Notes under the pieces: generated by a model | Told to the model about the DNA's origin: nothing | Database searches by the model: none | What the model saw: only the letters and a program-made list of their open reading frames with translations | NCBI GenBank assembly: GCA_025936615.1 | Contig: JAICSZ010000010.1 | Span: 1-14,601 of the forward strand | Source of the DNA: Pedococcus sp. | GTDB lineage: Bacteria > Actinomycetota > Actinomycetes > Actinomycetales > Dermatophilaceae | DNA length: 14,601 bases | Reading direction: 5' to 3' | Shown: positions 1-14,601 of the stretch, one piece after another | Position numbering within the stretch: position 1 is the stretch's first letter | Layout: the number at the start of each line of letters is the position of its first letter | Program-made: the position numbers and the translations under genes

Positions 1-60
1 CGCGGTCCCGGCCACGCGGCATACGGGCTGTGCTCCGGCGGACCCACTCAGCACAGGAAA
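1..60. other. Unassigned left edge
   Basis: No gene can be supported here. On the plus strand one frame stays open from the edge to a TGA at 62-64, which could be the last 20 codons of a gene entering from the left. On the minus strand an ATG at 22-20, with a GGAG about ten bases upstream, could start a gene running off the left edge. Too little sequence is present to choose between them. Confidence 0.3.
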
Positions 61-98
61 GTGAATGGCGGACAGGGTATACCATGTCCACCATTCAC
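61..98. repeat. 38-base imperfect palindrome centred on GGTATACC
   Basis: The two halves pair at 17 of 19 positions; only 69/90 and 75/84 mismatch. The outer arms are GTGAATGG and CCATTCAC, the middle contains GGACA and TGTCC, and the core is GGTATACC (76-83). It lies about 40 bases beyond the stop codon of the hydrolase gene and abuts a second palindrome. It could be an operator for a dimeric regulator of a gene to the left, or part of a bidirectional terminator. The symmetry is seen directly; the role is inferred. Confidence 0.7.
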
Positions 99-123
99 GA
101 ACCTTTGCTAGCAAAGGTTCGTG
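96..123. terminator. 28-base perfect palindrome, possible terminator of the hydrolase gene
   Basis: The sequence is perfectly self-complementary, starting CACGAACCTTT and ending AAAGGTTCGTG around a GCTAGC core. It lies 15 bases past the stop of the minus-strand hydrolase gene, where a transcription terminator is expected. No T tract follows on the minus strand, so it would be of the U-less type common in actinobacteria. An operator role is also possible because it shares three bases with the neighbouring palindrome. Confidence 0.55.
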
Positions 124-137
124 CAGCGGGCGGGGTG

Positions 138-1049
138 TCAGTGCAGGGTCGCGAGCCAGGACACCAGCCGGTGGTTGACCTCCTCCGGTGCCTCCTCGGG
201 CAGGAAGTGCCCGGCCCGCTGCACGAGGTGCGCCTCGAACCGGCCGGAGCAGTAGTGCGCCGAGCCGCCCGCTGACTCGGGCAGCACCGCGCTGTCGTGC
301 TCGCCGTGCAGCCGCAGCACCGGCACGGCCACCGGCGTGCGCAACCGCCTGGCGAAGCGCCACCCGTCCGGACGCAGCTGGCTGCGCACCACCCACCGGT
401 AGTACTCCGCCGCCGAGTGGGCGACGAACGGCAGCGCCATCGCCTCGGCGTAGGTCCGTGCCTCCTCGGGCGAGGGCCAGATCCCTTGGGGCGATGCCCA
501 CTCGCGCAGCAGCCGCTGCACGTACCCACCGTGGACCGTCATCTGCCGCTCCGGGACGAACGGGCGCTGCAGCCCACCGAGGTAGCCGTTGGCCCTCAGC
601 TGCGCTGCGCTCGTGAACGACGCCCGCCGGAACAGCAGCGGGTGCGGCATCGACAACGACGCGACCGCGCGGGTCACGGTCGGCTGCAGCGTCGGCATCG
701 TCCAGGCGATCCAGCCGCCCCAGCCGTGCCCGACCACCGCGGCACGCGAGGCGCCGAGGGAGCGCAGCACCGAGGCGACGTCGGTCGCGGAGGTGTAGGT
801 GTCGTAGCCCCGCGGCGGCTTGTCGGACGCGCCGTAGCCGCGCAGGTCCAGGGCGCAGGCTCGGTAGCCCGCCTCGGCCAGCGCGACCAGCTGGTGGCGC
901 CAGGCCCACCAGAACTGCGGGAACCCGTGCAACAGCAGCACCACCGGGCCGTCGCCGAGCTCGGCGACGTGGAAGCGCGCGCCGTTGGCGGCCACGAAGC
1001 GGTGCTCCCACGGACCCTCGATGAGGGCCATCGAGGCGTCAAGGGACAT
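138..1049 (-). CDS. Alpha/beta hydrolase, epoxide-hydrolase (EphE) type, nucleophile replaced by Gly
   Basis: This 303-residue protein has an alpha/beta-hydrolase fold of the epoxide hydrolase/haloalkane dehalogenase type. It shows the oxyanion-hole motif HGFP (41-44), the DLRGYGASDKP strand-turn (68-78), a candidate catalytic acid D252 in HGEHD and a candidate catalytic His281 in RAGHFLPEEAP. The nucleophile elbow, normally GHDWGG with Asp, reads GHGWGG here, so residue 109 is Gly (codon GGC; Asp would be GAC). Catalysis by the standard ester mechanism is therefore doubtful. It lies 54 bases after the holin-like gene on the same strand and is probably co-transcribed; a similar EphE/small-membrane-protein pairing is known in mycobacteria (from memory). 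I see no clear ribosome binding site before this ATG; an internal ATG at codon 7 is an alternative. The substrate is unknown. Confidence 0.87.
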   Translation of the reverse strand: MSLDASMALIEGPWEHRFVAANGARFHVAELGDGPVVLLLHGFPQFWWAWRHQLVALAEAGYRACALDLRGYGASDKPPRGYDTYTSATDVASVLRSLGASRAAVVGHGWGGWIAWTMPTLQPTVTRAVASLSMPHPLLFRRASFTSAAQLRANGYLGGLQRPFVPERQMTVHGGYVQRLLREWASPQGIWPSPEEARTYAEAMALPFVAHSAAEYYRWVVRSQLRPDGWRFARRLRTPVAVPVLRLHGEHDSAVLPESAGGSAHYCSGRFEAHLVQRAGHFLPEEAPEEVNHRLVSWLATLH

Positions 1050-1103
1050 GGACTCGTATGCCGTTCGGCTGGGTGGGTGCGCGGCCCGCGGCGGGTGCCG
1101 GGC

Positions 1104-1502
1104 TCAGGACCCGGACTTCACGGTGGAGATGGTCTCCTGCGCGTTGCGGATCGTGCGCTCCGGCTTGCCCTTGACCCCTTGCACGCTCTTCTTGCCGACC
1201 AGGGCGAGGCCGCCGGCGACGAGGAACAGCAGCGCCGTGGTGATGCCGTAGGACGCCGAGATGGGCAGCCAGATGTGGATCACCAGGGCAACGGTGTGGA
1301 CCAGGAAGATGAGGCCGAGGATGCCCAGGAAGGCGGCCGCGCCGAACATGCCGGCACCCTTGGCAGCGGCCTTGGCGTCGTCCTTGAGCTCCGTCTTGGC
1401 CAGGGCGATCTCGTTGTGGACGATGCTCGAGATGTCGTGGGTCGCGTCGGCAACCAGCTGGCCGATCGTGCGCTCGACACCGGGTTCGCGCGTCGTGGTC
1501 AT
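1104..1502 (-). CDS. Small two-helix membrane protein, actinobacterial holin-X (phage holin family) type
   Basis: This 132-residue protein has a soluble N-terminal amphipathic stretch (about 8-48, with TIGQLVADATHDISSIVHNE and a Lys/Asp-rich part). Two hydrophobic helices follow at about 52-77 and 83-104, then a basic, polar C-terminus. That layout fits the family annotated 'phage holin family / Actinobacterial holin-X', a chromosomal membrane family whose function is not settled. The start is well supported: GGAGGTG lies about eight bases upstream of the ATG. It is the first gene of a probable two-gene unit with the hydrolase. No lysin or other phage gene is nearby, so the holin label should not be read as evidence of a prophage. 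Confidence 0.83.
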   Translation of the reverse strand: MTTTREPGVERTIGQLVADATHDISSIVHNEIALAKTELKDDAKAAAKGAGMFGAAAFLGILGLIFLVHTVALVIHIWLPISASYGITTALLFLVAGGLALVGKKSVQGVKGKPERTIRNAQETISTVKSGS

Positions 1503-1653
1503 CGCCTCTCACCTCCGTCGGGGCGGTCGTGCCCGCAGCACGAGCCTATCCACCCGGCTGGGTCGGCGCCGCTCGAGCCGGCCCGTCTCTGGGGCAACGC
1601 CTCCTAGACTGCGGCGCACAGCGTTCGCGCATCCGCCGTCCGAGGAGGTGCCC
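1503..1653. promoter_or_regulatory. Divergent promoter region between holin-like and CBS genes
   Basis: This 151-base gap separates two genes that point away from each other, so it must carry a promoter in each direction. On the plus strand TAGACT (1605-1610) is a fair -10 box for the CBS gene; no convincing -35 is visible. On the minus strand TAGGCT, read from about 1547 to 1542, is a possible -10. Ribosome binding sites are clear at both ends: GAGGAGGT before the CBS gene and GGAGGTG before the holin-like gene. Confidence 0.4.
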
Positions 1654-2109
1654 ATGCGGGCCAGGGACCTGGCCCAGCCCTTCGCCACCGTGGGGCTGGA
1701 GGACTCGGCGCTCGAGGCGGCCCGCGCCATGGCGGAGGCGGGGCGGCCGGGGATCGTCGTGCTCGGCGAGGACGGCACCCCGTGGACCGTGCTGCCGGGG
1801 TCGCAGGTGCTACGGCTGGCCATCCCGAAGTACGTCCAGGAGGACCCGCACCTTGCCCGGGTCTACGACGAGAAGGGTGCGGACGAACTGTTCGCCCGGC
1901 TCGAGGGCAAGGTGGTGCGCGACCTGGTCCCCGGGCACCGTGAGCAGGACGAGCTCCCCGTGGTCGACCCTGACGCGACCTCGATCGAGGTCGCCGCGGT
2001 GATGGCCCGGATGCGCAGTCCCTTGGCGGTGGTGAGCGACGGCGACGAGATCCTCGGCGTGGTCACCGTGAGCCGGCTGCTGCGGGCGCTGCTGCCCAAG
2101 GACGCATGA
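1654..2109 (+). CDS. CBS-domain protein coupled to NhaD-type transporter
   Basis: This 151-residue soluble protein looks like a tandem CBS pair. The first unit spans about 1-60, including GRPGIVVLGEDGTPWTVLPG. The second spans about 85-147, with LPVVDPDATSIEVAAVMARM and SPLAVVSDGDEILGVVTVSRLL. CBS pairs commonly bind adenosyl nucleotides and gate a partner protein. The ATG has a strong GAGGAGGT ribosome binding site about five bases upstream; the open frame extends further upstream but without such a signal. Its stop overlaps the start of the transporter gene (ATGA at 2106-2109), so the two are translated together. The natural reading is that it senses nucleotide or energy status for the transporter. 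No membrane segment is present. The ligand is unknown. Confidence 0.85.
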   Translation: MRARDLAQPFATVGLEDSALEAARAMAEAGRPGIVVLGEDGTPWTVLPGSQVLRLAIPKYVQEDPHLARVYDEKGADELFARLEGKVVRDLVPGHREQDELPVVDPDATSIEVAAVMARMRSPLAVVSDGDEILGVVTVSRLLRALLPKDA

Positions 2110-3398
2110 TCACCACGCTGGTCGTGGTCGCGTTCGTCGCGGCCTACGTCCTGATCGCCACCGAGCGGATCCACCGGGTCGCCGCGGCCCTGTGGGGCGC
2201 GGCGGCCATGGTGGTGCTCGGCGCCGTCGACGCCAGGACCGCGTTCTTCAGCGAGGAGACCGGTGTCGACTGGAACGTCATCTTCCTGCTGCTGGGGATG
2301 ATGCTCATCGTCGGCGTCCTGAGACAGACCGGGGTGTTCGAGTACCTCGCGATCTGGGCGGCCAAGCGCGCGCGGGGGCGGCCGTTCGCCGTGATGGTGA
2401 TGTTGGTCGTCATCACCGCAGTCGCCTCGGCACTCCTCGACAACGTGACCACGGTGCTGCTGATCGCGCCGGTGACCCTGCTGGTCTGCGACCGGCTGGG
2501 GGTGGCGCCGGTGCCCTACCTCATCGCAGAGGCGATGGCCTCCAACATCGGCGGCACCGCCACCCTGGTCGGCGACCCGCCCAACATCATCATCGCGAGC
2601 CGCTCCGGCCTGTCCTTCAACGACTTCCTCGTGCACATGGCCCCCATCGCGACGCTGCTGGTGGTGGTGTTCGTCGGCCTGTGCTGGCTGCTGTTCCGAA
2701 AGGGCCTCACGCACGACCCGGAGCGCGCGGCCGCGGTGATGGGCCTCGACGAGCGTGAGGCGATCCAGGACCGGGGCCTGCTGGTGCGCAGCCTGGTGGT
2801 GCTCGCCCTGGTGCTCGCCGGCTTCATGGCGCACTCGGTCACCGGCCTCGAGCCGTCCGTGGTGGCGCTGATGGGCGCCGGCGCGTTGGTGGCGCTGTCC
2901 AGGCTGGAGCCCCGCGACTACCTTCGCGACGTCGAGTGGCCGACGCTGGTGTTCTTCGCGGGGCTGTTCGTCATGGTGGGCGCACTGGTGCACGTCGGCG
3001 TCGTCGAGCACGTCGGCCACGCGCTCAGGGACGCCGTCTCCGGACGGCTGCTGCTGGGCAGCACGGTCATCCTGTGGGGCTCGGCGGCCCTGTCGGGGGT
3101 GATCGACAACATCCCCTACGTCGCCACGATGGCGCCCATCGTCAGGGACCTCGCCGGCGGCGTCGGCGCCGACCAGCAGCACCAGGCCCTCTGGTGGGCC
3201 CTCGCGCTGGGCGCCGACCTGGGTGGCAACGCCACCGCCGTGGGCGCCAGCGCAAACGTGGTGATCCTCGGCATCGCGGCTCGCAACGACCACCCGATCA
3301 GCTTCTGGCGGTTCACGAAGTACGGCCTGGTCGTCGCCGCGGTGACCGTGGCCGTGGGCTGGGGCTACCTTTGGCTGCGCTACTTCGCGTTCGCCTGA
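2106..3398 (+). CDS. ArsB/NhaD-type ion transporter (probable Na+/H+ antiporter)
   Basis: This 430-residue polytopic membrane protein has about eleven or twelve hydrophobic segments. Signatures of the ion transporter superfamily are present: [15 protein letters not shown] at about 115-130, [20 protein letters not shown] at about 142-161, and the matching second-repeat ends [12 protein letters not shown] and [19 protein letters not shown] in the last 100 residues. These two repeats, each with a re-entrant hairpin, are the ArsB/NhaD/CitM plan. Arsenite efflux is a formal alternative, but no ars gene is near and a NhaA gene lies next door, which favours Na+/H+ exchange. It overlaps the CBS gene by ATGA. 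Its last 19 bases overlap the end of nhaA on the other strand, so the two genes converge with no room for a terminator. Confidence 0.85.
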
Positions 3399-4741
3399 GT
3401 CGGCTCGAAGCAGTCGGGGACGCCGTCGCCGTCCGCGTCGGCCGACTCGGTCGCGGCGATCCGCCGGTACACCCGGTTGCGGGCCCGCAGCACGACCGTC
3501 GCCAGCAGTGCGGACAGCAGCGACCCGGTCAGCACGGCCAGGCGCACGTGCTCGTCGCGTGGGCTGCCCGCCCCGAACGCCAGCTCGCTCACCAGCAGGG
3601 AAACGGTGAAGCCGACGCCCCCGAGAAGCGCGAGCCCGGCCACGTCCCACCAGGCGAGGTCGTCGTCGAGCTCCGCCCGGGTGAACCTCGCGAAGACCCA
3701 GGTCCCCCCGAGAACGCCGACGAACTTGCCGACCACCAGCGCAGCCACCACCGCGAGGGCGGCCTCGTCGGCGAACGACTCACGCAGCCCGCCGCCCACG
3801 AACCGCACCCCAGCGGCGAAGAACGCGAACACCGGCACCGCGACCCCCGCCGACAGCGGGCGCATCCGGTGCTCGAACCGCTCGGCGACGTCGACGTCGG
3901 CACCGTGCGTGCTGATCCGCGGCACGCTCGCCCGCGGCTTGACCGGCACCGCCAGGCCGAGCAGCACCCCGGCAACGGTCGCGTGCACGCCGGAGGCGTG
4001 CACCAGCCCCCAGGTCGCGGCGGCGAGCGGGAGCAGCAGCCACCACCGGGTGACCCTGCGCTGCACCAGCCACGCGAACCCGGCCAGCGGCAGGAGGGCC
4101 AGGCCGAGCGCAGGCAGGTCGAGGTCACCGGTGTAGAAGACGGCGATCACCGTGATGGCGACCAGGTCGTCGACCACGGCGAGGGTGAGCAGGAACGACC
4201 GCAGCGCCGACGGCAGGTGGGTGCCGATCACGGCCAGCACGGCGAGCGCGAACGCGATGTCCGTCGCAATCGGCACCGCCCAGCCGCGCAGGGTGTCTCC
4301 GGACCCGCCCAGGAAGGTGACGCCCGCGGCATACAGCAGTGCCGGCACCGCCACGCCACACAACGCGGCGGCCACGGGCAGCGCCGCTCGTGACGGGGAC
4401 CGCAGGTCGCCCACCAGCACCTCGCGCTTGAGCTCCAGCCCGGCGACGAAGAAGAACACGGCGAGCAGGCCGTCGGCCGCCCACTGGGCCAGGCTGAGGT
4501 CGAGGTGCAACGCGGAGGGCCCGACCCGCAGGTCGTGGAGGGTGGAGTACCCGCCGTGCCACGGGGAGTTGGCCCAGGCCAGCGCGACGAGTGCCGCGGC
4601 GAGCAGCAGGGCACCGCCGACGGTCTCGGTGCGCAGGGCGGCGGTGACGAGCTGCGCCTCGCGCCACGTGGATCGGCGCAGCAGGCGCGGCCGGGGGGGA
4701 ACGAGGGTCACAGGGGGCCTTTCGATGGCGTCACACGTCAT
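3380..4741 (-). CDS. nhaA: Na+/H+ antiporter NhaA with a calcium-loop-like C-terminal tail
   Basis: This 453-residue protein exchanges Na+ (or Li+) for H+ across the cytoplasmic membrane. [12 protein letters not shown] (96-107) is a family signature. The ion-binding acids match E. coli D133, D163 and D164: D161 in ATDIAFAL and D191/D192 in VVDDLVAI, with identical spacing. The [10 protein letters not shown] segment matches the unwound helix region. A proline- and arginine-rich N-terminal stretch of about 25 residues precedes the first helix. The C-terminus adds D-x-D-x-D-G-x-x-D (435-443), as in calcium-binding thrombospondin type-3 loops. The ATG has no evident ribosome binding site. A GTG ten codons in (4711) has AAAGG six bases upstream and may be the true start. 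The gene is separated by 111 bases from the flavoprotein gene upstream. Confidence 0.93.
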
Positions 4742-4852
4742 CGCGACGCGGCCGACCAGGCTTCCCGGCTCACCAAGAGCCCCAGTCTACCGACTCGGGG
4801 TCTGCGGAGGATCCGGCGCGTCCTGACCCGTCGGCTCCTCCGAAGACTGGCG
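4742..4852 (-). promoter_or_regulatory. Leader/intergenic region of nhaA with two potential hairpins
   Basis: Read towards nhaA, two inverted repeats occur. One lies at 4805-4842 (7-bp arms, CGGAGGA with TCCTCCG around 24 bases). The other lies at 4780-4800 (CCCC/GGGG plus AGT/ACT with one bulged base). The first comes just after the flavoprotein stop and may be its terminator; the second may shape the nhaA leader. I cannot match either to a known riboswitch. I see no clear promoter boxes. Confidence 0.35.
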
Positions 4853-5404
4853 TCACGAGGGGGTCCGGGCCTTGGCGCGCAGCTCCTCGAACATCGTCGC
4901 CAGCCCCTTCGCGGCGATGTCGAGCTGTTCGCCGGGCAGCAGCTCACCGGCCAGGGTCAGGCTCTGGTCGAATGCCAGGCCCGGCCCCTCGACCCACGTC
5001 ATCCTGACCCGCTCCAGGGTCTGGCGGAGCGCCGACTTCGCGTAGGACGCGCCGTGCCAGCCGTAGCCGACACACGCCACCGGCAGGCCCTCCCACTCGG
5101 CGTAGAGGTAGTCGATCGCGTTCTTGAGGGCGGCGTTGTAGCCGCGGTTGTACTCGGGCATGACGAGAACCAGCACGTCGGTCGCCCGCATCGCCGCCGA
5201 CCAGCGCTTCGTGTGCGCCTTGGTGTACCGGCCCTCGAACGGCTGGTGCGGCTCGTCGAGGAACGGCAGGTCGATCTCGCGCAGGTCGTGGACGGTGACC
5301 TCGAAGCCGTCGGGCAGGTGTTCCAGCACCCAGTCGGCCACGAGCGGCCCGATGCGGGTCGGGCGGGTGCTCGTGACCACGACCGACAGGCGAGGGGATG
5401 ACAT
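4853..5404 (-). CDS. NADPH-dependent FMN reductase-family flavoprotein
   Basis: This 183-residue flavodoxin-like oxidoreductase would use bound FMN to pass electrons from NAD(P)H to FMN, quinones or other acceptors. The phosphate-binding N-terminal strand-loop is VVVTSTRPTRIGPLV (8-22), where the usual GSTR is TSTR. The isoalloxazine-contact motif PEYNRGYNAALKNAIDYL (83-100) is intact, as is the following W-rich turn (YAEWEG). Length is normal for the family. I chose the ATG at 5404 because it places the first beta strand four residues from the start. An upstream in-frame GTG at 5452 would add 16 residues, but neither start has a strong ribosome binding site. It stands alone, divergent from the malic enzyme gene; its physiological acceptor cannot be told. 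Confidence 0.85.
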   Translation of the reverse strand: MSSPRLSVVVTSTRPTRIGPLVADWVLEHLPDGFEVTVHDLREIDLPFLDEPHQPFEGRYTKAHTKRWSAAMRATDVLVLVMPEYNRGYNAALKNAIDYLYAEWEGLPVACVGYGWHGASYAKSALRQTLERVRMTWVEGPGLAFDQSLTLAGELLPGEQLDIAAKGLATMFEELRAKARTPS

Positions 5405-5529
5405 GAAGGGCAGTCTGTCAGTGCGACGTCCATGGTCCGGACATCTCGACACTTCCGCTTAACAGAAGTTACTATCCACGATACAGAAATACGCTCGAAG
5501 AGACGCTGTGCTGGCAAGGAGGCCTTCGC
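5405..5529. promoter_or_regulatory. Divergent promoter region upstream of malic enzyme, with a 19-base palindrome
   Basis: For the plus strand, TCGACA (5446-5451) and TACTAT (5470-5475), 18 bases apart, form a plausible sigma-70-type promoter. Between and touching the boxes lies the imperfect palindrome ACTTCCGCTTAACAGAAGT (5451-5469; outer five bases fully paired), well placed to block RNA polymerase. Its TTCC...GAA half-sites resemble the elements before the urate and glyoxylate genes, but the match is weaker. AAGGAGG at 5517-5523 is the malic enzyme ribosome binding site. The minus-strand promoter for the flavoprotein must overlap; no boxes stand out. Confidence 0.5.
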
Positions 5530-6951
5530 ATGTCCGCTCCGTCACCCGGGTACTCGATCACCGTCCGTGTGGAGGCGCCGGCCGCCATCGACACCACGGG
5601 GGTGATCGCGGCGGCCGTGGCCGAGGCCGGTGGCGCGCTCACCGCGCTCGACGTCGTGGAGTCCCGGACGAGCAGCCTCGTGGTCGACGTGACGTGCAAC
5701 GCCGCGGACGAGGACCACGCCGACGAGATCACCGCCAAGATCGCGGCGGTCCCCGGGGTCACGGTGCGCAAGGTCAGCGACCGCACCTTCCTGCTCCACC
5801 TCGGGGGCAAGCTCGAGGTCGTCCCCAAGGTGCCGCTCAAGCACAGGGACGACCTGTCCCGCGCGTACACGCCGGGCGTCGCCCGCGTGTGCCTGGCCAT
5901 CGCCGAGAACCCCGAGGACGCCCGCCGGCTGACCATCAAGCGCAACACCGTCGCCGTCGTCACCGACGGCTCCGCCGTGCTCGGTCTGGGCAACATCGGC
6001 CCAGCCGCCGCACTGCCCGTCATGGAGGGCAAGGCCGCGCTGTTCAAGCAGTTCGCCGGCGTCGACGCCTGGCCGGTCTGCCTCGACACCCAGGACACCG
6101 AGGAGATCATCAGCATCGTCAAGGCGCTGGCCCCCGTCTACGGTGGCGTGAACCTCGAGGACATCTCCGCCCCCCGCTGCTTCGAGATCGAGCAGCGGCT
6201 GCGCGACGAGCTCGACATCCCCGTCTTCCACGACGACCAGCACGGCACCGCCATCGTCGTGATGGCGGCCCTCACCAACGCGCTGCGGGTCGTCGGCAAG
6301 AAGCTCGAGGAGGTCAGCATCGTGGTGTCGGGCGTCGGGGCCGCCGGGCACGCGATCGTCCGGCTGCTCGACGCACAGGGGGCCACCGACATCATCGGCT
6401 GCGACCGGCACGGGGCGCTCGACCCGGACGCCGAGCACCGCGACGAGTTCCGAGGCTGGATCGCCAAGAACACCAACCCTCGTCGTGTGCGCGGCACGCT
6501 CAAGGAGGTGCTCGCCGGGACCGACGTCTTCATCGGCGTCTCCGCCCCCAACCTGCTCGACGGGGCGGACATCGCCACGATGGCCGACGACGCCATCGTG
6601 TTCGCCCTCGCCAACCCCGACCCCGAGGTCGACCCGGTCGCCGCCAGCAAGCACGCAGCGGTGGTCGCGACCGGCCGCTCCGACTACGCCAACCAGATCA
6701 ACAACGTGCTGGCCTTCCCAGGCGTCTTCCGCGGGCTGCTCGACGCCCAGGTCAGGGACATCACCGACGCCATGATGATCGCCGCCGCGACCGCCATCGC
6801 GGACTGCGTCAGCCCGGAGGAGCTCAACGCGGCCTACATCGTGCCCAGCGTCTTCGATGCCGACGTCGCCCCCGCCGTCGCCGCCGCCGTGCGGGCAGCG
6901 GCAGACGGGCACCGCCACCACTCCGACCCCACGCCGAAGGCATCCACCTGA
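5530..6951 (+). CDS. Malic enzyme with N-terminal ACT-like domain
   Basis: This 473-residue protein catalyses oxidative decarboxylation of malate to pyruvate and CO2 with NAD(P)+. Residues 8-82 form an ACT-like domain ([10 protein letters not shown] start, beta-alpha-beta pattern), expected to bind a regulatory small molecule. The catalytic part follows. Tyr113 lies in [10 protein letters not shown] and Lys168 in [11 protein letters not shown]. The metal acids are E210/D211 (NLEDI) and D235/D236 (FHDDQHGT), and the dinucleotide fold has SGVGAAG (267-273). All key residues are present. The ATG follows AAGGAGG by six bases. Its stop overlaps the next start (TGATG), so it is translationally coupled to the CitE-like gene. 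The placement suggests it drains malate made from purine-derived glyoxylate. The cofactor (NAD or NADP) cannot be decided by eye. Confidence 0.93.
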
Positions 6952-8201
6952 TGACACTCGACCCCGACGCCCTCACGACCGAGCTCGAGGGGCGCCTCGC
7001 AGGGGCGGATGCTGCCCTGGCGCAACAGTTCCCGGGCGAGCGAGCCACCCGGCAGCCGGTCCACACCGTCTACGTACCCGCCGACCGCTACGACGCGGGC
7101 CTCGTCCCGCAGTGGGGCAGGGAAGCCCTCGCCGCCCTCGACGAGCACGGGGGCAGCGCTGCTGACTTCGCAGCGACCCTGGGACTGCCGGCCACCCTCG
7201 CCGACGAGGTCGTGAGCCGGGTGCGCAGCAAGCTCGAGCGGGAGCCCATCGAGGACCTGCGCATCGACTTCGAGGACGGCTACGGCCCGCGGCCCGACCC
7301 CGAGGAGGACCAGGCGGTCGACGCGTCGGTGAAGGGGCTGCGCGAGTCGGTGGCGAGCGGCGCCGCTGCGCCGTTCCACGGCATACGGTTCAAGAGCTTC
7401 GAGGCGCCCACCCGAGCGAGGGGGGTTCGCACACTCGCCAGGTTCGTCGAGGGTGTCGCCGACGGCGACGCCCTCCCGGACGGCTTCGTGGTCACCCTCC
7501 CCAAGGTGACCTCCGTCGAGCAGGTGGAGGCCATGGTCCACGCCTGCGAGCAGATCGAGTCCGGGCTCGGGCTGCGCTCAGGGGCAATGGGTTTCGAGAT
7601 CCAGGTCGAGACACCCCAAGCCATCGTCGGGCCGGACGGCTCGGCGCTCGTGGCCCGCATGGTCCACGCCTCGACGGGTCGGTGCACCGCGCTCCACTAC
7701 GGCACCTACGACTACTCGGCGTCGTGCGGGATCGCCGCGGCCTACCAGTCGATGGAGCACCCCGCCGCCGACTACGCCAAGGCGGTCATGCAGGTCGCTG
7801 CCGCCGGCACGGGCGTTCGGCTCTCCGACGGCTCCACCAACATCCTGCCGGTCGGGGACCGCGAGCGCGTGCACGCCGGCTGGGCACTGCATGCCCGACT
7901 CGTGCGCCGGTCCCTCGAACGTGGCTACTACCAGGGCTGGGACCTGCACCCGGCCCAGCTGCCGAGCCGCTACGCCGCGACCTACGCGTTCTACCGCGAG
8001 GGCCTGCCCGCAGCGGCCGAGCGGCTGCGGAACTACGTCGGCCAGGTCGACTCCGGCGTCATGGACGAGCCGGCGACGGCGCGGGCGCTCGCCGACTTCG
8101 TGGTGCGTGGCCTCGACTGCGGTGCCGTCGACGACGCCGAGGTCGAGTCGCTCACCGGCATCGACCGGGGCCGGTTGGACACCCTGGCGAAGCGCGCCTG
8201 A
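6951..8201 (+). CDS. CitE/HpcH-like C-C lyase-fold protein (DUF6986 type)
   Basis: This 416-residue protein has the landmarks of the CitE/HpcH-HpaI superfamily, TIM barrels that cleave or form C-C bonds next to a carboxylate or CoA ester. IDFEDGYGP (105-113) resembles the LDLEDAV strand. R146 in GIRFK is a candidate substrate-binding Arg. E220 (QVETPQ) and D254 (GTYDYS) are the expected Mg2+ ligands, and WDLHPAQLPSRY (330-341) matches the IHPxQ segment. It is about 100 residues longer than CitE, with a helical N-terminal extension. I recognise it as the actinobacterial family called DUF6986, which has no settled function that I know of. Coupling to malic enzyme, and a neighbouring glyoxylate pathway with no malate synthase in view, suggest malate, malyl-CoA or a related hydroxyacid as substrate or product. 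That is inference. Confidence 0.82.
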   Translation: MTLDPDALTTELEGRLAGADAALAQQFPGERATRQPVHTVYVPADRYDAGLVPQWGREALAALDEHGGSAADFAATLGLPATLADEVVSRVRSKLEREPIEDLRIDFEDGYGPRPDPEEDQAVDASVKGLRESVASGAAAPFHGIRFKSFEAPTRARGVRTLARFVEGVADGDALPDGFVVTLPKVTSVEQVEAMVHACEQIESGLGLRSGAMGFEIQVETPQAIVGPDGSALVARMVHASTGRCTALHYGTYDYSASCGIAAAYQSMEHPAADYAKAVMQVAAAGTGVRLSDGSTNILPVGDRERVHAGWALHARLVRRSLERGYYQGWDLHPAQLPSRYAATYAFYREGLPAAAERLRNYVGQVDSGVMDEPATARALADFVVRGLDCGAVDDAEVESLTGIDRGRLDTLAKRA

Positions 8202-8215
8202 GTAGCGTGGTCGCC

Positions 8216-8464
8216 GTGCACGTAAGGGCGGAGTTCACGACCGAGCCCTTCCATGGGGAGGGTGAACCGCCCGCGCACGTGGCGGCCGCTGCGCAGCCGT
8301 TGGAGTATGCCGGGTTGTCACCCGACCTCGGACCGCTCGGCACGGCGGTGGACGGCGCCGCAGACGACGTCCTGCCGGCCATCGCCAAGGCGATGGAGGC
8401 CGCATTCGCCTCGGGCGCAACGCGGTTCACGCTCCAGGTCGAGCGGGTGGACGGTCATGGCTGA
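8216..8464 (+). CDS. Thiamine-binding-type small protein (MTH1187/YkoF-like)
   Basis: This 82-residue protein has a ferredoxin-like beta-alpha-beta pattern. The pattern HVRAEFTTEPF, then a helix with PPAHVAAAAQPLEYAGL, then DLGPLGTAVDGAADDVLPAIAKAMEAAFASGATRFTLQVERV, matches the small thiamine-binding family (PF01910 type), thought to bind thiamine or related pyrimidines in the cytoplasm. The GTG at 8216 is the best start because it gives the usual family N-terminus; another in-frame GTG lies at 8207. No strong ribosome binding site is seen. Only 14 bases follow the upstream stop, so re-initiation is likely. The end overlaps the next gene by eight bases. Its position near the thiamine-diphosphate enzyme Gcl may be meaningful. 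Family call moderately sure; function inferred. Confidence 0.72.
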   Translation: MHVRAEFTTEPFHGEGEPPAHVAAAAQPLEYAGLSPDLGPLGTAVDGAADDVLPAIAKAMEAAFASGATRFTLQVERVDGHG

Positions 8465-8894
8465 GCCCCTTTCGCAGCTGCCGACGACCAAGGGTGCGAC
8501 AGGCGGACAGTCGGCGGACCTGCAGGAGGCGTTGCGCCCACTGCTCCAGCGGGTGGGGGGCCAGGTCGTCCAGGCCGAGCCGCAGCCGGGTGACGTGCCG
8601 GTCGAGTGGGGTGGCGCGGTGCTCTTCCACGTGCGCCTGGCAGAGCCGGCGGCCGGGGGAGAGCTGGTCGCCCCCGACCTGACCGACGGCTTGGCGCGGC
8701 TCATCGAGGACGTCGAGGCCGAGCTCGGTGGCCGGCTCTCTGAACTGCCCAGGGCGCAGAAGCAGCACGCCGTCCGGATTCTGGAGGAGCGGGGAGCCTT
8801 CGAGATGCGCCGCTCCGCCGAGACCGTCGCCGAGGCGCTCGGCGTCACCCGGTTCACCGTCTACAACTACCTCAACCGTGCGCGGGGCGCCTGA
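8457..8894 (+). CDS. Helix-turn-helix protein, HTH resembling the YheO C-terminal domain
   Basis: This 145-residue protein ends in a convincing DNA-binding domain. Residues 102-142 (KQHAVRILEERGAFEMRRSA, then VAEALGVTRFTVYNYLNRAR) match the plan of the HTH found at the end of YheO/DauR regulators. The N-terminal part (about 20-95) is short and lacks the PAS-like domain of YheO. It has VEWGGAVLFHVRL, a beta-rich stretch, then a helix DGLARLIEDVEAELGG that could dimerise. The ATG lies inside the end of the thiamine-binding gene (eight-base overlap). It directly precedes the urate gene promoter, so it is the best in-window candidate for the local regulator. Its ligand and targets are unknown. 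Confidence 0.75.
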   Translation: MAEPLSQLPTTKGATGGQSADLQEALRPLLQRVGGQVVQAEPQPGDVPVEWGGAVLFHVRLAEPAAGGELVAPDLTDGLARLIEDVEAELGGRLSELPRAQKQHAVRILEERGAFEMRRSAETVAEALGVTRFTVYNYLNRARGA

Positions 8895-9010
8895 GCCAGC
8901 TCCATATATTCAACAAACTGTTGACTCCCTGTCCGGAGCATGCCAGCCTTTCGCAACACGGAAATCTCTTTCCATTTGGTGAGAGCCCATCCAGTGAGAG
9001 GACTCAAGAG
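8895..9010 (+). promoter_or_regulatory. Promoter and operator region of the urate operon
   Basis: Three elements are visible. TCAACAAACTGTTGA (8910-8924) is a perfect palindrome with 6-base arms. TTGACT (8921-8926) is a good -35 box overlapping it, with CAGCCT (8944-8949) as a poor -10 at 17-base spacing. GGAAATCTCTTTCC (8960-8973) is a 14-base inverted repeat lying 39 bases after the -35 start, just past the expected transcription start. GAGAGGA (8996-9002) serves as ribosome binding site for the GTG at 9011. AT content is far above the flanks. The poor -10 suggests an activated promoter or a different -10. Confidence 0.6.
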
Positions 9011-9505
9011 GTGGACCTGGACCGGTTCAACGGGGAGACAGTCGACGCGCTGACCCCCACCTTGTTGGCCTGCTGCGACGTGCCCGGCTGGGCCAACGCC
9101 GTGGCCGAAGGTCGTCCCTACGCGGATGTCGACGCCGCACTCGCGGTGGCCGACAAGGCCGCCCGCGGCCTGACCCCGGCCGAGGTCGACCGCGCACTCG
9201 CCGCCCACCCCCGGATCGGGGAGCGCGCCGAGGGCCGGGGCACCGAGGCCGCCTGGTCCCGTGGCGAGCAGTCCGGTGTCGGCCGCGACGAGCGGACCGC
9301 CGCCGCGCTCCTCGAGGGCAACCGGACCTACGAGGAGCGGTTCGGCCGGGTCTTCCTCATCTGCGCCACCGGCCTTTCCGGTGAGCAGGTCCTCGACAGC
9401 CTCACCGAGCGGCTCGGCAACGACGACGAGACCGAAGCGGCCGTCGTCGCCGACGAGCTGCGCAAGATCGCCGTGCTCCGACTGCGAAAGGTCCTCGACT
9501 CATGA
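9011..9505 (+). CDS. uraD: 2-oxo-4-hydroxy-4-carboxy-5-ureidoimidazoline (OHCU) decarboxylase
   Basis: This 164-residue cytosolic enzyme performs the third step of urate degradation, decarboxylating OHCU to (S)-allantoin with correct stereochemistry. The catalytic His66 in AAHPRIGE and Glu86 in WSRGEQSGV match the His67/Glu87 pair of the zebrafish enzyme. The all-helical length is normal. I chose the GTG at 9011, which follows GAGAGGA by eight bases and gives the family-like N-terminus VDLDRFN. A longer open frame to an ATG at 8921 would translate the operator and has no ribosome binding site. The stop overlaps the next start (ATGA), so it is coupled to the HIU hydrolase gene. First gene of the urate operon. 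Confidence 0.93.
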   Translation: MDLDRFNGETVDALTPTLLACCDVPGWANAVAEGRPYADVDAALAVADKAARGLTPAEVDRALAAHPRIGERAEGRGTEAAWSRGEQSGVGRDERTAAALLEGNRTYEERFGRVFLICATGLSGEQVLDSLTERLGNDDETEAAVVADELRKIAVLRLRKVLDS

Positions 9506-9834
9506 GCGCGATCACCACCCACGTCCTCGACACCTCGCGCGGCAGGCCGGCACGCGGCATACCGGTGCGCCTCGAGGCCCTCGAACCACAGCCGCACGTC
9601 CTCGCGGAGGCAACCACCAACGAGGACGGCCGTGTTCCCGAGCTCGGACCCGACCGGGTCGAGAACGGCACGTACCGCCTGGTCTTCGACACCGCCGCCT
9701 ACCACGCGGCGCAGGGCGAGACCGGATTCTTCCCCGAGGTCGTCATCACGTTCACCCTCGACGACCCCGCCCAGCACTACCACGTGCCCGTCCTGCTCAG
9801 CCCGTTCGCCTTCTCCACCTACCGAGGAAGTTGA
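9502..9834 (+). CDS. uraH: 5-hydroxyisourate hydrolase (transthyretin-like)
   Basis: This 110-residue enzyme hydrolyses 5-hydroxyisourate, the product of urate oxidase, to OHCU. Family hallmarks are complete: ITTHVLDTSRGRPARGIPV at the N-terminus (His7), DGR with Arg44, HYHVPVLLSPFAFSTYRGS at the C-terminus with the conserved His pair and the diagnostic YRGS ending. It is a small homotetrameric cytosolic protein with no signal peptide. It is coupled to uraD by ATGA overlap and lies six bases before urate oxidase. Gene order uraD-uraH-uox runs opposite to reaction order but keeps all three unstable-intermediate steps together. Confidence 0.96.
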   Translation: MSAITTHVLDTSRGRPARGIPVRLEALEPQPHVLAEATTNEDGRVPELGPDRVENGTYRLVFDTAAYHAAQGETGFFPEVVITFTLDDPAQHYHVPVLLSPFAFSTYRGS

Positions 9835-9840
9835 TCCACC

Positions 9841-10746
9841 ATGGCCATCAAGCTTGGTCCCAACCAGTACGGCAAAGCCGAGAACCACCTGGTCCGCGTC
9901 TACCGCGACAGCGACCGCCACGAGATCCACGACCTGACCGTCTCCACCTCACTGCGCGGTGACTTCAGCGCCGCGCACGCCTCGGGTGACCAGGCCGAGG
10001 TGCTCCCCACGGACACCCAGAAGAACACCGTGTTCGCGTTCGCCAAGGAGAAGGGGGTGGAGTCGCCCGAGCAGTTCGCGCTCGAGCTCGCCGACCACTT
10101 CCTGGCCACCTCCAAGGTCGCCGAGGGTGCGCGCATCGAGGTCGACGAGGCCGCCTGGAGCCGCATCGAGGTCGACGGCCAGGGTCACGACCACGCCTTC
10201 GTCCAAGGCGGCAACGGCACCCGCACCACCGTCGTCAACGTGGACGGCCGCGGTGCCGACCGCAAGGCGCACGTCGTCTCCGGCCTGAAGGACCTCGTCG
10301 TCCTCAAGTCGACCGGTTCGGCCTTCCGCGGCTTCCTCAAGGACAGGTACACGACGCTGCAGGAGACCGACGACCGCATCCTCGCGACCTCGCTCGTCGT
10401 GCGCTGGCGCTACGAGGGGACCGACGTCGACTGGAACAAGACCTTCGACGCGGTCAAGGCCCTGCTGTTGGAGAAGTTCGCCGTGCCGCACTCGGAGGCG
10501 CTGCAGCAGACCCTCTACGGCATGGGCGAGGCAGTGCTCGAGCAGTTCCCGGCGATCCAGGAGATCAAGTTCTCCGCGCCGAACAAGCACCACTTCCTCG
10601 TCGACCTCGCGCCGTTCGGGCTCGACAACCCCGGCGAGGTCTTCTACGCGGCCGACCGCCCGTACGGCCTGATCGAGGCCACCGTCGTCCGTGACGACGC
10701 CACCGACCCCGGGGCCGCGTGGCACGCGGTGCCCGGCTTCTGCTGA
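9841..10746 (+). CDS. Urate oxidase (uricase)
   Basis: This 301-residue cofactor-free enzyme oxidises urate with O2 to 5-hydroxyisourate and H2O2. Landmarks are NQYGKAENHLVRVYRD (8-23) with catalytic Lys12, LPTDTQKNTVFAFAKE (55-70) with Thr57, the RGFLKDRYTTL turn (163-173), and NKHHFLVDLAP (248-258) with the catalytic-site Asn/His. Both tunnelling-fold halves are present and length is standard. The ATG is preceded by GAGGAAG at 9824-9830, inside the end of uraH. It requires O2, so it implies aerobic purine catabolism and a need for catalase, which is not in this window. Third gene of the operon. Confidence 0.97.
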   Translation: MAIKLGPNQYGKAENHLVRVYRDSDRHEIHDLTVSTSLRGDFSAAHASGDQAEVLPTDTQKNTVFAFAKEKGVESPEQFALELADHFLATSKVAEGARIEVDEAAWSRIEVDGQGHDHAFVQGGNGTRTTVVNVDGRGADRKAHVVSGLKDLVVLKSTGSAFRGFLKDRYTTLQETDDRILATSLVVRWRYEGTDVDWNKTFDAVKALLLEKFAVPHSEALQQTLYGMGEAVLEQFPAIQEIKFSAPNKHHFLVDLAPFGLDNPGEVFYAADRPYGLIEATVVRDDATDPGAAWHAVPGFC

Positions 10747-10763
10747 AAGGGGTGTGAGGACCG

Positions 10764-12227
10764 ATGAAGCTCCTCTCCCGCCCGGGAAACCCGAGGTACC
10801 GCGGACGCCCCGAGGACCAGAGCTACGGCCCCGGGCAGCTGCTCGCCTATGGCACCCAGCACATCCTCACGATGTACGGCGGGGTCATCGCACCGCCGCT
10901 GATCGTCGGTGGCGCGGCCAAGCTCTCGCCGGGCGACATGGCGCTGCTCGTCACCGCCGGACTGTTCATCAGCGGGCTCGCCACGCTGCTGCAGACCCTG
11001 GGGGTCGGGCCGTTCGGCAGCCGGCTGCCCATCGTGCAGGGCATCTCCTTCGCGAGCGTGTCGACGATGGTCGCCATCGCGAGCGACGGCGGCGTGCGGC
11101 CCGTGTTCGGGGCGATCATCGTCGCCGGGCTGATCGGCCTGGTGGCGAGCTCGTTCTTCGCCCAGCTGGTACGGCTGTTCCCCGCGGTCGTGACCGGGTC
11201 GATCATCACGGTGATCGGGCTGTCGCTGTTGCCGGTGTCCTTCACCTGGGCGATGGGCGGCGCGGGCGCCAAGGACCTCGGGTCGACGTCCAACATTGGC
11301 TTCGCCGCGCTGACGCTGCTCATCATCCTGGTGATCAGCCGGGTGTTCCAGGGCGCCATCTCGCGGCTGTCCATCCTCATCGGCATGGTGGTCGGCACGC
11401 TGGTCGCCGCGCTCGTCGGCAAGGCCGACTTCTCCACCGTCGGTGACGCCAAGATCATCGCCCTCCCGCAGCTGTTCCACTTCGGGGGCCCGACCTTCCA
11501 GGTCGGCGCGATCGTCTCGATGACCATCGTGATCTTCGTGATCATGACCGAGACGACGGCCGACATCCTGGCCATCGGCGAGATCGTGGGCACCGAGGTC
11601 GACGCCAAGCGGGTCGCCGACGGCCTGCGCGCGGACATGGTCTCGACGGCGGTGGCGCCGGTGTTCGGTTCCTTCCCGTGCAGCGCCTTCGCGCAGAACG
11701 TCGGCCTGGTGGCGCTCACCGGCATCAAGAGCCGCTTCGCGGTGGCTGCCGGTGGCGGCGTGCTCCTGGTGCTCGGCCTCCTGCCGGTCGTCGGTGCGGT
11801 CGTGGCCGCGATTCCGTACCCCGTCCTGGGTGGCGCGGGAATCGTGCTCTTCGGCTCGGTGGCGGCTAGCGGCATCCGCACCCTGTCCCGTGTCAACTAC
11901 CACGACAACCTCAACATGGTGATCGTCTCCGTCGCCATCTCGGTGGGCATCATCCCGATCGCCGCCCCGACCTTCTGGGACTCCTTCCCGAACTGGTTCA
12001 GCGTGATCATGCACTCGGGCATCAGTGCCACCGCGGTGGTCGCCGTCCTGATGAACCTGCTGTTCAACGAGGTCAAGGCGGGCAACAAGCCCGGTGCCTC
12101 TGTCTTCGCAGCGGCAGAGTCCGAGAAGGACGAGCTCGGGGACACCCTCGACGACGAGCTGCGCGGCGAGAAGCGCCCGGTCCAGGGCAGCCGGCGGCCG
12201 GTCGAGCCAGCCGGCGGACCGCACTAG
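10764..12227 (+). CDS. NCS2 nucleobase:cation symporter, probable urate/xanthine permease
   Basis: This 487-residue integral membrane protein has about 12-14 hydrophobic segments on the NCS2/NAT (UraA, UapA) plan. The key acidic residue of the TM8 region is E263 in ETTADILAIGEIVG. The NAT signature QNVGLVALTG starts at Q311/N312 and is followed by IKSR. The Q-N-x-G form is the one common in purine rather than uracil carriers. A hydrophilic, acidic C-terminal tail of about 40 residues follows the last helix. GAAAGGGGTGTGAGG lies shortly before the ATG, 17 bases after the urate oxidase stop, so it is the last gene of the urate operon. Context makes urate the likely substrate; xanthine is the main alternative. 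Confidence 0.93.
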   Translation: MKLLSRPGNPRYRGRPEDQSYGPGQLLAYGTQHILTMYGGVIAPPLIVGGAAKLSPGDMALLVTAGLFISGLATLLQTLGVGPFGSRLPIVQGISFASVSTMVAIASDGGVRPVFGAIIVAGLIGLVASSFFAQLVRLFPAVVTGSIITVIGLSLLPVSFTWAMGGAGAKDLGSTSNIGFAALTLLIILVISRVFQGAISRLSILIGMVVGTLVAALVGKADFSTVGDAKIIALPQLFHFGGPTFQVGAIVSMTIVIFVIMTETTADILAIGEIVGTEVDAKRVADGLRADMVSTAVAPVFGSFPCSAFAQNVGLVALTGIKSRFAVAAGGGVLLVLGLLPVVGAVVAAIPYPVLGGAGIVLFGSVAASGIRTLSRVNYHDNLNMVIVSVAISVGIIPIAAPTFWDSFPNWFSVIMHSGISATAVVAVLMNLLFNEVKAGNKPGASVFAAAESEKDELGDTLDDELRGEKRPVQGSRRPVEPAGGPH

Positions 12228-12365
12228 CGGCCCGGTCCGGGTATATCCGGCCCACCTGCTGGGACGGGCCGACCGGTGGTTGACCACCCGCCGCCGGTCG
12301 GCCTACCCTCTCACTAATCGGAAAACAACTTCCACAATCCGAAATCTCTTCCGGAAGGGGCAGCC
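12228..12365 (+). promoter_or_regulatory. End of urate operon, then promoter and double operator of the glyoxylate operon
   Basis: A short hairpin, CGGCCC (12248-12253) with GGGCCG (12266-12271), follows the permease stop and may terminate the urate transcript; it has no T tract. TTGACC (12280-12285) and TACCCT (12304-12309), 18 bases apart, form a good promoter. Two operator-like elements follow: GGAAAACAACTTCC (12320-12333), GGAA-N6-TTCC as before uraD, and GAAATCTCTT (12341-12350), identical to the 10-mer before uraD. The second abuts the GGAAGGGG ribosome binding site of the next gene. Confidence 0.65.
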
Positions 12366-13193
12366 ATGGCCGACCACGGACTGCGCTACGAAGCCAACCT
12401 GTCCATCCTGTTCACCGAGCTCCCGCTGCTCGAGCGGCCCGCCGCCGCCAGGGCGGAGGGCTTCACCGCGGTCGAGTTCTGGTGGCCCTGGCCGGACCAG
12501 CCGGTGCCGGCTGACCGCGACGTCGACGCCTTCGTGTCGGCGGTGCAGGACGCCGGCGTGCAGCTGGTCGGCCTCAACTTCTTCGCCGGTGACCTCGCCG
12601 GCCCCGACTGCGGGGTGCTGTCCATCCCCAGCCGGGTCCAGCAGTTCCGCGACAACATCGACGTCACCGTGGGCATCGGCGAGCGGCTCGGGGTCTCCGG
12701 GGTCAACGCGCTGTTCGGCAACCGCGTCGACGACGCGTCGCCCGAGGAGCAGGATGCGCTCGGTCGCGAGTCGATCGCCGCTGCGGCCAAGGCCGCCGAC
12801 CGCATCGGGGCGACCGTGCTCGTCGAGTCGGTGAGCGGCCCCAAGCCGTACCCGCTGCGCACCGCCGCCGACGCCGTCTCCGTCGTCGACGACGTGCGGG
12901 CGACCGGCGCCGCCAACGTCGGCTTCCTCATGGACCTCTACCACCTCGCTGCCAACGGCGACGACCTCGATGCCGCCATCGCGGCGTACACCGACCGCAC
13001 CGCGCACGTGCAGGTCGCCGACGCCCCCGGCCGTGGGGAGCCCGGCACTGGTGACCTCGACCTGGACCGCTACCTCGGCCAGCTGGCCGACCACGGGTAT
13101 GCCGGGTGGGTGGGCCTGGAGTACAAGCCCACCACCGCGACCACTCCCGAGAGCCTCGGCTGGCTGCCGCGCGAGCGCCGCGCCGCCGGCTGA
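12366..13193 (+). CDS. hyi: Hydroxypyruvate isomerase
   Basis: This 275-residue TIM-barrel enzyme of the xylose-isomerase-like fold interconverts hydroxypyruvate and tartronate semialdehyde. It starts with the family-typical LRYEANLSILFTELPLLERPAAA and has GFTAVEFWWPWP (about 32-43). Likely metal-binding residues are the Glu in VLVESVSGPKPYPL (about 156), the Asp and His in GFLMDLYHLAANG (about 183-186), and the Glu in WVGLEYKP near the C-terminus. The ATG follows GGAAGGGG by about six bases. It opens the glyoxylate operon with glxR and gcl. A sugar isomerase of the same fold is the only alternative, and the context argues against it. Confidence 0.93.
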   Translation: MADHGLRYEANLSILFTELPLLERPAAARAEGFTAVEFWWPWPDQPVPADRDVDAFVSAVQDAGVQLVGLNFFAGDLAGPDCGVLSIPSRVQQFRDNIDVTVGIGERLGVSGVNALFGNRVDDASPEEQDALGRESIAAAAKAADRIGATVLVESVSGPKPYPLRTAADAVSVVDDVRATGAANVGFLMDLYHLAANGDDLDAAIAAYTDRTAHVQVADAPGRGEPGTGDLDLDRYLGQLADHGYAGWVGLEYKPTTATTPESLGWLPRERRAAG

Positions 13194-13231
13194 GACCCCA
13201 CCGACAAACCAGACCCCGGACCCTCGCCCCT

Positions 13232-13284
13232 TGCTTGCGTCTGCGGTTTTGCCCCGCTGGTGGGCAAAACCGCAGACGCAAGCA
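13232..13284 (+). repeat. Perfect 23-bp-arm inverted repeat inside the glyoxylate operon
   Basis: The left arm (13232-13254) starts TGCTTGCGTCTGCGG and the right arm (13262-13284) is its exact complement, ending CCGCAGACGCAAGCA. The loop is seven bases, CGCTGGT. It fills the middle of the 117-base gap between hyi and glxR. In RNA it would be a very stable hairpin, placed to reduce read-through to glxR-gcl or to protect the upstream message. Such long perfect arms also fit a dispersed palindromic element. The repeat is certain; its role is inferred. Confidence 0.9.
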
Positions 13285-13310
13285 GGAAAGACCACCGCAA
13301 GGAGAACGCA

Positions 13311-14213: not shown

Positions 14214-14216
14214 ACC

Positions 14217-14601
14217 ATGGCCCGCATGACCGCGGCCCAGGCGGCCGTCGAGATCCTCAAGAAGGAGGGGGTGACCAACCTCTTCGGGCTGCCCGGGGCG
14301 GCGATCAACCCCTTCTACAAGGCGATGAAGACCAATGGCGGTCTCCACCACACGCTCGCCCGTCACGTCGAGGGTGCCTCGCACATGGCCGAGGGCTACA
14401 CCCGCGCCAAGCCCGGGAACATCGGCGTCTGCATCGGCACCTCCGGTCCCGCTGGCACCGACATGATCACCGGCCTGTACTCCGCCAGCGCGGACTCGAT
14501 CCCGATCCTGTGCATCACCGGTCAGGCGCCGGTGTCCAAGCTGCACAAGGAGGACTTCCAGGCGGTCGACATCGCGTCCATCGCCAAGCCGCTGACCAAG
14601 A
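14217..14601 (+). CDS. gcl: Glyoxylate carboligase (tartronate-semialdehyde synthase), truncated by the window edge
   Basis: Only the first 128 codons are present. The enzyme is thiamine-diphosphate dependent and joins two glyoxylates, releasing CO2, to give tartronate semialdehyde. [31 protein letters not shown] is the typical N-terminus. [16 protein letters not shown] carries Val51 where other members of this enzyme superfamily have the glutamate that activates thiamine diphosphate, which is the hallmark of Gcl. [30 protein letters not shown] follows as expected. The ribosome binding site AAGGAGGGC overlaps the glxR stop region. It runs off the right edge intact. Confidence 0.96.

Follow-up and report, generated by a model that had tools for sequence, protein, structure and literature searches.

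A non-palindromic 8-bp word with dialects in one Micrococcales family, probably a DNA uptake sequence

The window, i.e., the whole 14,601-nt stretch of Pedococcus sp. DNA analyzed here (contig JAICSZ010000010.1, positions 1 to 14,601), contains seven copies of the 8-bp word CGGCATAC (complement, GTATGCCG), four in the forward and three in the reverse orientation. The word is probably a DNA uptake sequence of one family of the order Micrococcales, that is, a tag for self-recognition comparable to the DNA uptake sequence (DUS) and the uptake signal sequence (USS) of other bacteria, and it occurs in dialects within the family. This interpretation is based on the density of the word, its balance between strands, its exact core, its dialects, its hairpins, and its scarcity in compositionally atypical DNA, all of which match published descriptions of uptake sequences. 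An earlier note on the window had named an uptake word among several options, and this option fits best. The seven copies are located as follows.

Copy 1, 17..24, plus strand: past the end of the gene at 138-1049.
Copy 2, 1056..1063, minus strand: intergenic, 6 bp upstream of the ATG of an alpha/beta-hydrolase gene (138-1049, minus strand).
Copy 3, 4327..4334, plus strand: in an NhaA-type Na+/H+ antiporter gene (3380-4741, minus strand; Pfam Na_H_antiport_1), as TAT GCC (Tyr-Ala).
Copy 4, 7379..7386, plus strand: in a DUF6986 gene (6951-8201, plus strand), as GGC ATA (Gly-Ile).
Copy 5, 8305..8312, minus strand: in a small Thiamine_BP-family gene (8237-8464, plus strand), as TAT GCC (Tyr-Ala).
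Copy 6, 9555..9562, plus strand: in a hydroxyisourate hydrolase (HIUase) gene (9502-9834, plus strand), as GGC ATA (Gly-Ile).
Copy 7, 13097..13104, minus strand: in a hydroxypyruvate-isomerase-like (Hyi-like) gene (12366-13193, plus strand; Pfam AP_endonuc_2), as TAT GCC (Tyr-Ala).

These are exactly the seven positions, in both orientations, that had been listed in the earlier note. The number of copies is far above chance, as had been estimated there: dinucleotide shuffles of the window contained 0.24 copies on average and three at most (200 shuffles), and the expectation from a third-order Markov model was 0.19. All seven occurrences of CATAC/GTATG in the window are within CGGCATAC. The five copies said to lie in genes do so (NhaA, DUF6986, Thiamine_BP, HIUase, and AP_endonuc_2), and the word is read as TAT GCC where it runs against the gene and as GGC ATA where it runs along it. 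The five copies had been described as lying in different reading frames, which holds for the two orientations but not for the codon phase, as all five begin at codon position 3 (the phase of the 8305 copy being counted from the gene start at 8237); in other genomes the word is found in further codon phases too. TAT or ATA triplets outside CGGCATAC are located at 78-79, 1547, 5473-5489, 8904-8907, 10848, and 12242-12244 in the window, and by gene coordinates only the one at 10848 is in a gene. Thus, the claim that nearly all in-gene TAT/ATA triplets lie within the word holds in the window. It does not hold in a relative, G166 (genomes and loci are cited by our G and L numbers), where 117 of 512 TAT codons and 27 of 48 ATA codons are within CGGCATAC. 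Because these triplets occur in other contexts in relatives, which the earlier note would have counted against a signal had they been equally frequent there, their near confinement to the word reflects the GC-rich composition of the window and is no feature of the system. The sequence context of copy 2, shortly ahead of the hydrolase start codon, is CGGCATACGAGTCCATG.

The distribution of the word was investigated in relatives found by a scan of named genomes with the DUF6986 protein, which yielded 540 relatives, of which the best 80 loci were kept. Among these best 80 of 540 loci, CGGCATAC was most frequent in an Intrasporangiaceae metagenome bin (25 copies, 21 kb), Ornithinimicrobium tianjinense (17), Leekyejoonella antrihumi (6), and O. 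pekingense (5), while the others had zero to three copies. NCBI assigns O. tianjinense to Ornithinimicrobiaceae, L. antrihumi to Dermacoccaceae, and the word-poor Intrasporangium flavum to Intrasporangiaceae; here, all belong to one family-level group of 186 genomes, which we take to be the Dermatophilaceae of GTDB. The DUF6986 protein of the window showed 84% identity to that of G139 and 82-83% identity to those of G144, G145, and G149, which places the window near the group G139-G151. A genome was regarded as word-rich when it had 300 copies or more and at least double the count of a reversed-word control. By this definition 110 of the 186 family genomes are rich in CGGCATAC, and 94 have at least 1,000 copies, the highest counts being 4,724 in G001 (4.2 Mb) and 4,205 in G168 (3.1 Mb). 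The density in these 110 genomes ranges from about 0.09 to 1.4 copies per kb, and the median count in the 110 rich genomes is about 11 times that of the reversed control; a genome-wide count near expectation, which in the earlier note would have spoken against a signal, was therefore not what the relatives showed. The two strands are used equally in the rich genomes (101,874 forward and 101,543 reverse copies), as they are along a single 3.17 Mb contig, in which 20 sampled stretches gave 162 and 155 copies by strand and none was strongly skewed. In an order-level sample of 396 genomes, the maximum in the 362 genomes outside the family was 180 copies, and in a phylum-level sample of 236 genomes, the maximum in the 233 outside the family was 386 (G598, 7.5 Mb, with 176 copies of the reversed control). 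These near-background counts indicate that CGGCATAC is a trait of the family and not an effect of actinobacterial base composition.

The word is sharply defined. In 395 kb of G166, 317 copies were found where 3.6 were expected from the word-masked sequence (about 88-fold), and 118 were found in G143 where 0.95 were expected, whereas the 24 words with one mismatch, taken together, were close to expectation in both genomes (283 observed and 250 expected in G166, 96 and 86 in G143). All eight bases of CGGCATAC matter, and the word is a fixed core. It is non-palindromic, as it differs from its complement. Preferences in the flanks were weaker and variable, with C after CGGCATAC in G166, G143, and G002, and G in G001 (77%). 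Among six sampled genomes, CGGCATAC ranked first of the over-represented 8-mers in all but G013, where a tandem repeat array came first; a repeat containing GGAAGCACTCCCGCG, possibly CRISPR (clustered regularly interspaced short palindromic repeats), is present there in about 56 copies (L115-L119), and a similar excess around CGCAACTGCCCGG was seen in G059 (L132-L135). Synonymous codon shuffling lowered the number of in-gene copies about 10-fold, from 219 to 21 in G166, from 133 to 14 in G106, and from 104 to 8 in G083; in the window, four in-gene copies compared with 0.4 after the shuffle, a count that omits the small gene at 8237-8464, which was missed by our simple gene finder. Taken together, the family-wide counts, the exact core, and the synonymous shuffles strongly support the view in the earlier note that the word is a signal at the DNA level, kept against codon preference.

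Stretches of 12 genomes poor or intermediate in CGGCATAC, plus locus L002, were searched for dialects. In five genomes the leading 8-mer was a one-base variant, CGGCATCC in G040 and G180 and CGGCGTAC in G094, G021, and G009; the stretches of G162, G187, G028, G044, and G059 gave no clear dialect word, and the signal was weak in those of G010, G090, and L002, and also in G005, although G090 has 1,463 copies of CGGCGTAC genome-wide despite its weak sample. Across the 186 genomes, CGGCATCC is clear in seven, at 686 to 1,248 per Mb (2,099 to 4,480 copies), and intermediate in G160 (382 per Mb) and G155 (346 per Mb), with at most 238 per Mb in the remaining genomes. CGGCGTAC is clear in ten, at 312 to 930 per Mb (1,125 to 4,185 copies), and intermediate in G148, G145, G025, and G010 (207 to 230 per Mb), with at most 187 per Mb in the rest. 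For the dialect words, comparison with the reversed control separates genomes less cleanly, genomes left uncounted having ratios of up to 6.6 (CGGCATCC) and 5.7 (CGGCGTAC). About 124 genomes (110 plus 14) would make up a dialect series. G042 and G043 carry two words (1,217 and 1,189 copies of CGGCATAC, 2,195 and 2,099 of CGGCATCC), as if caught in a dialect switch, and G145 and G148 may be mixed-word genomes too. The dialect words also depend on codon choice, as synonymous shuffling reduced their in-gene copies about 5-fold (from 300 to 54 in G040 and from 253 to 53 in G094). In G154-G165, CGGCGTAC is about 4 to 6 times as frequent as its reversed control, though its density there is only some 125 to 190 per Mb; CGGCATCC is raised in G155 and G160, and the pattern is perhaps a faint or fading dialect. 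In several CGGCATAC-rich genomes (G113-G115, G107, G055, G153, and G022), the neighbour CGGCGTAC is 2-5 times rarer than its reversed control, as if near-misses had been removed or converted there.

The arrangement of the copies depends on their orientation. Even spacing was rejected, as the gaps in G166 look random overall. Orientations of neighbouring copies alternated more often than expected by chance in G166 (197 alternating and 100 same), G143 (74 and 37), G045 (27 and 13), G001 (25 and 12), and G083 (98 and 38), and less markedly in G106 (83 and 58), G040 (187 and 140), and G094 (153 and 120, p 0.053). Smaller samples gave 23 and 14 in G013, 15 and 3 in G119, 9 and 7 in G002, 2 and 2 in G004, 1 and 4 in G003, and 5 and 1 in the window. 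When the former eight genomes were pooled and pairs were sorted into seven bins from 9-100 bp to 2.5-5 kb, same-orientation pairs occurred at 0.60, 0.58, 0.65, 0.74, 0.92, 0.94, and 0.95 of the Poisson expectation, and opposite pairs at 1.36, 1.14, 1.07, 0.99, 1.01, 0.95, and 0.96. Permutation of orientations within stretches gave the same picture at 100-1000 bp, with 174 same-orientation pairs of CGGCATAC observed and 246.9 expected from the permutations in six genomes, and 270 pairs of dialect words observed and 308.2 expected in two genomes, none of 2000 permutations giving a count as low in either case; past 1 kb the permutations showed no effect. Convergent and divergent pairs were alike (158 and 180). 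The alternating fraction of 27 control words of similar frequency was 0.41 to 0.56, but at 100-1000 bp single control words had same-orientation ratios down to 0.69, lower than that of the word in G106 (0.84). The spacing rule is carried by G166 (0.51), G083 (0.56), and the pooled test. Copies therefore avoid only same-strand copies, within about 1 kb. This avoidance suggests that a copy acts for a single strand, or for a single direction of entry, and that another copy less than about 1 kb away on that strand would be redundant.

The position of the word in the genome was determined with gene calls from our own gene finder. The word is denser between genes than within them in G166 (1.50 and 0.68 per kb) and G083 (1.90 and 0.59 per kb). 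Four genomes contain 44 pairs in opposite orientation less than 60 bp apart. Of these, 29 lie in intergenic DNA (10 between convergent genes), and many of the 31 close inverted pairs that were viewed form long hairpins by eye; terminators made of uptake sequences have likewise been described as inverted pairs forming hairpins. With base composition as a proxy for recently acquired DNA, the most atypical eighth of 4 kb bins contained fewer words in five of six genomes. A low-GC island in G166 (L100, 1-13000; C1, about 1.80 Mb) has no CGGCATAC in 13 kb; its genes, which encode a carbamoyltransferase, a radical SAM protein (with a weak B12-binding match), an aconitase-like protein, an AMP-binding protein, and pyridoxal phosphate (PLP) enzymes, make it look like an acquired secondary-metabolite cluster. 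Individual copies differ between orthologues. None of the eight aligned orthologues has CGGCATAC at the 7379 site, three of them having GGC ATC (CGGCATCC) instead, while at the 8305 site the same word is found at the orthologous place in L214, one of six aligned, and orthologues bear CGGCATAC at places where the window has none. These differences indicate that copies are gained and lost by point changes.

Uptake sequences have been attributed to two Gram-negative families, Neisseriaceae and Pasteurellaceae (PMC3630211, PMC5031613), and those known are described with similar density, strand balance, terminators made of inverted pairs, and dialects, and with an excess in non-coding DNA, which the present word shows in G166 and G083 but not in G106, G040, or G094 (PMC7811141, PMC1939737, PMC3630211, PMC5031613). 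The 12-mer DUS of Neisseriaceae resembles the present word in having hundreds to thousands of copies, rare single deviations, and dialects that follow phylogeny (PMC3630211, PMC5031613), and in having part of the copies as inverted repeats (PMC1939737). It differs in that its receptor is ComP, whereas here the hosts are Gram-positive, PilM is found in 7 of 186 genomes, the word is a shorter and different one, and its spacing is strand-specific. DUS starts with ATGCCG, which is contained in GTATGCCG; this was taken as coincidence. The USS of Pasteurellaceae (Hin and Apl dialects) is also a different word, and the mutual avoidance of same-strand copies distinguishes the word described here from it.

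In the proposed mechanism, competent cells would recognize the word on incoming DNA and would import that DNA via ComEA/ComEC and a pilus of the Tad (Flp) type, in the manner of Micrococcus luteus. The imported DNA would be recombined, and biased uptake would spread the word by molecular drive. Genes for parts of such a route are widespread in the family: a ComEC match was obtained in 180 of 186 genomes, ComEA is present in 77 of 79 chosen genomes, usually adjoining ComEC by coordinates, and PF00437 (T2SSE-family) ATPases, the family that includes the Tad ATPase, are present in 78 of 79. M. luteus belongs to the same order as the word-bearing family. Its transformation requires two tad loci, and both comEC and tad genes were either required for it or investigated in it; tad is found alongside comEA/comEC across many actinobacteria (PMC4322843), so that the Tad route is plausible but unproven. 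The two cases differ in that the available text on M. luteus transformation mentions no uptake word (PMC4322843), and the order-level sample outside the family, which may or may not include M. luteus, showed no CGGCATAC enrichment.

Several observations weigh against an uptake sequence. As to the machinery, all six genomes without a ComEC match (G022, G057, G125, G131, G170, and G183) are word-rich, for which assembly gaps may be the reason. Neither ComEC (186 genomes) nor ComEA (79 genomes) separates word-rich from word-poor genomes, nor do PF00437 ATPases in 79 genomes, for which no Tad-specific model was run; thus, no gene tracks the word so far. PilM was matched in only 7 of 186 genomes (E 0.001 or better; six over the cut-off), leaving 179 without a match. 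A type IVa pilus, as used by the known systems, was rejected as the uptake pilus because PilM is nearly absent, and a Tad pilus may take its place; a type IVa pilus with a minor pilin that binds the word characterizes the known hosts more than the word itself. As to the word itself, 62 of the 186 family genomes have no clear level of any of the three words, the intergenic excess is absent in G106 (0.47 intergenic and 0.81 in-gene per kb), G040 (1.22 and 1.32), and G094 (1.07 and 1.02), the atypical bins of G106 are not poorer in words, and the distribution of all gaps in G166 looks random (coefficient of variation, 0.99). Uptake in Haemophilus has been reported to be independent of orientation (PMC1939737), though a review states that strandedness influences transformation. 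Finally, our literature search found no uptake or transformation data for these species.

The main rival of an uptake sequence is a Chi-like word read by another enzyme, since this would also be directional. A directional helicase-nuclease would halt at the oriented word and load RecA, each copy serving one DNA end. Such directional reading would also explain the avoidance of same-orientation copies only, and word-rich genomes without a ComEC match would pose no difficulty. Chi sites resemble CGGCATAC as short oriented words spread across the chromosome, and Chi words vary between lineages, as the dialects do. We nevertheless consider a Chi-like signal unlikely, as strand bias is absent along the 3.17 Mb contig, inverted pairs are made into intergenic hairpins, and the over-representation of about 88-fold is far above the levels familiar for Chi. 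A Chi site of RecBCD in the strict sense is disfavoured because RecC, the subunit of RecBCD that reads Chi, does not track the word: it was present in 14 of 38 CGGCATAC-rich and 23 of 41 poor genomes, or in 16 of 45 and 21 of 34 once seven dialect genomes were moved to the rich side, and the densest genomes, G001, G168, and G153, gave no RecC match. There is thus no positive link to RecC. AdnAB is not known to respond to Chi.

A further alternative is a self-marker: a defence or modification enzyme inside the cell would bind or methylate the word and leave DNA bearing it untouched. Such a marker would equally produce the density throughout the family, the dialects, and the shortage of words in atypical DNA. 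Highly iterated palindrome 1 of cyanobacteria (HIP1, GCGATCGC) is likewise a genome-wide 8-mer with lineage-specific substitutes (PMC4390886). HIP words, however, are palindromic and tied to orphan methyltransferases (PMC4390886), whereas CGGCATAC is non-palindromic, so that a palindromic methylation word is excluded by the sequence itself; moreover, a self-marker has no obvious reason to repel same-orientation copies only. We regard it as very unlikely.

A word for nucleoid organization or chromosome segregation, of the type of FtsK-orienting polar sequences (KOPS) or architecture-imparting sequences (AIMS), parS, or SMC-loading sites, would account for the high copy number throughout the chromosome. 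It is highly improbable, as the strands are balanced both on contig stretches and genome-wide, and as the rest of the phylum sample showed no enrichment although segregation proteins are general; a polar KOPS/AIMS word in particular, which corresponds to the chromosome-organisation site suggested in the earlier note, is disfavoured by the lack of polarity along the 3.17 Mb contig. Just as improbable is that mutation or repair in a certain sequence context turns a single neighbouring word into CGGCATAC: word sites do arise by point changes at orthologous places, and the neighbour CGGCGTAC is scarce in some word-rich genomes, but the turnover at the window sites involved different source words, and directed mutation, which the earlier note had also proposed, was rejected because no single common neighbour is missing in G166 and G143, where the 24 neighbours are near expectation.

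It is quite possible, if short of probable, that DNA uptake sequences arose independently a third time here, and for the first time in Gram-positives. In this view they would act via a pilus of the Tad type and have three or more dialects, with some genomes in mid-switch, and the tag would be strand-specific, licensing one strand or entry direction over less than about 1 kb, so that copies repel those in their own orientation and are indifferent to opposite ones. No report of CGGCATAC or of uptake sequences in actinobacteria was found in the literature, preprints and most subscription papers being outside the search. If a third case in high-GC Gram-positives, with another envelope and another pilus, is real, DNA self-tagging would be shown to evolve repeatedly, and the dialect series of about 124 genomes would allow the receptor to be found by co-variation. 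Natural transformation would be predicted in many actinobacteria, for which the words could serve as practical transformation tags. The spacing by orientation would offer a quantitative handle on the reach of the tag and on whether one strand is served.

A row of genes at 5530-14213 of the window encodes a malic enzyme, the DUF6986 protein, a ureidoimidazoline decarboxylase, HIUase, urate oxidase, a permease, the Hyi-like isomerase, and a reductase; the decarboxylase, urate oxidase, permease, and reductase were identified by eye. This region looks like a cluster for purine-ureide breakdown, in which the DUF6986 protein is a candidate for an unassigned lyase.

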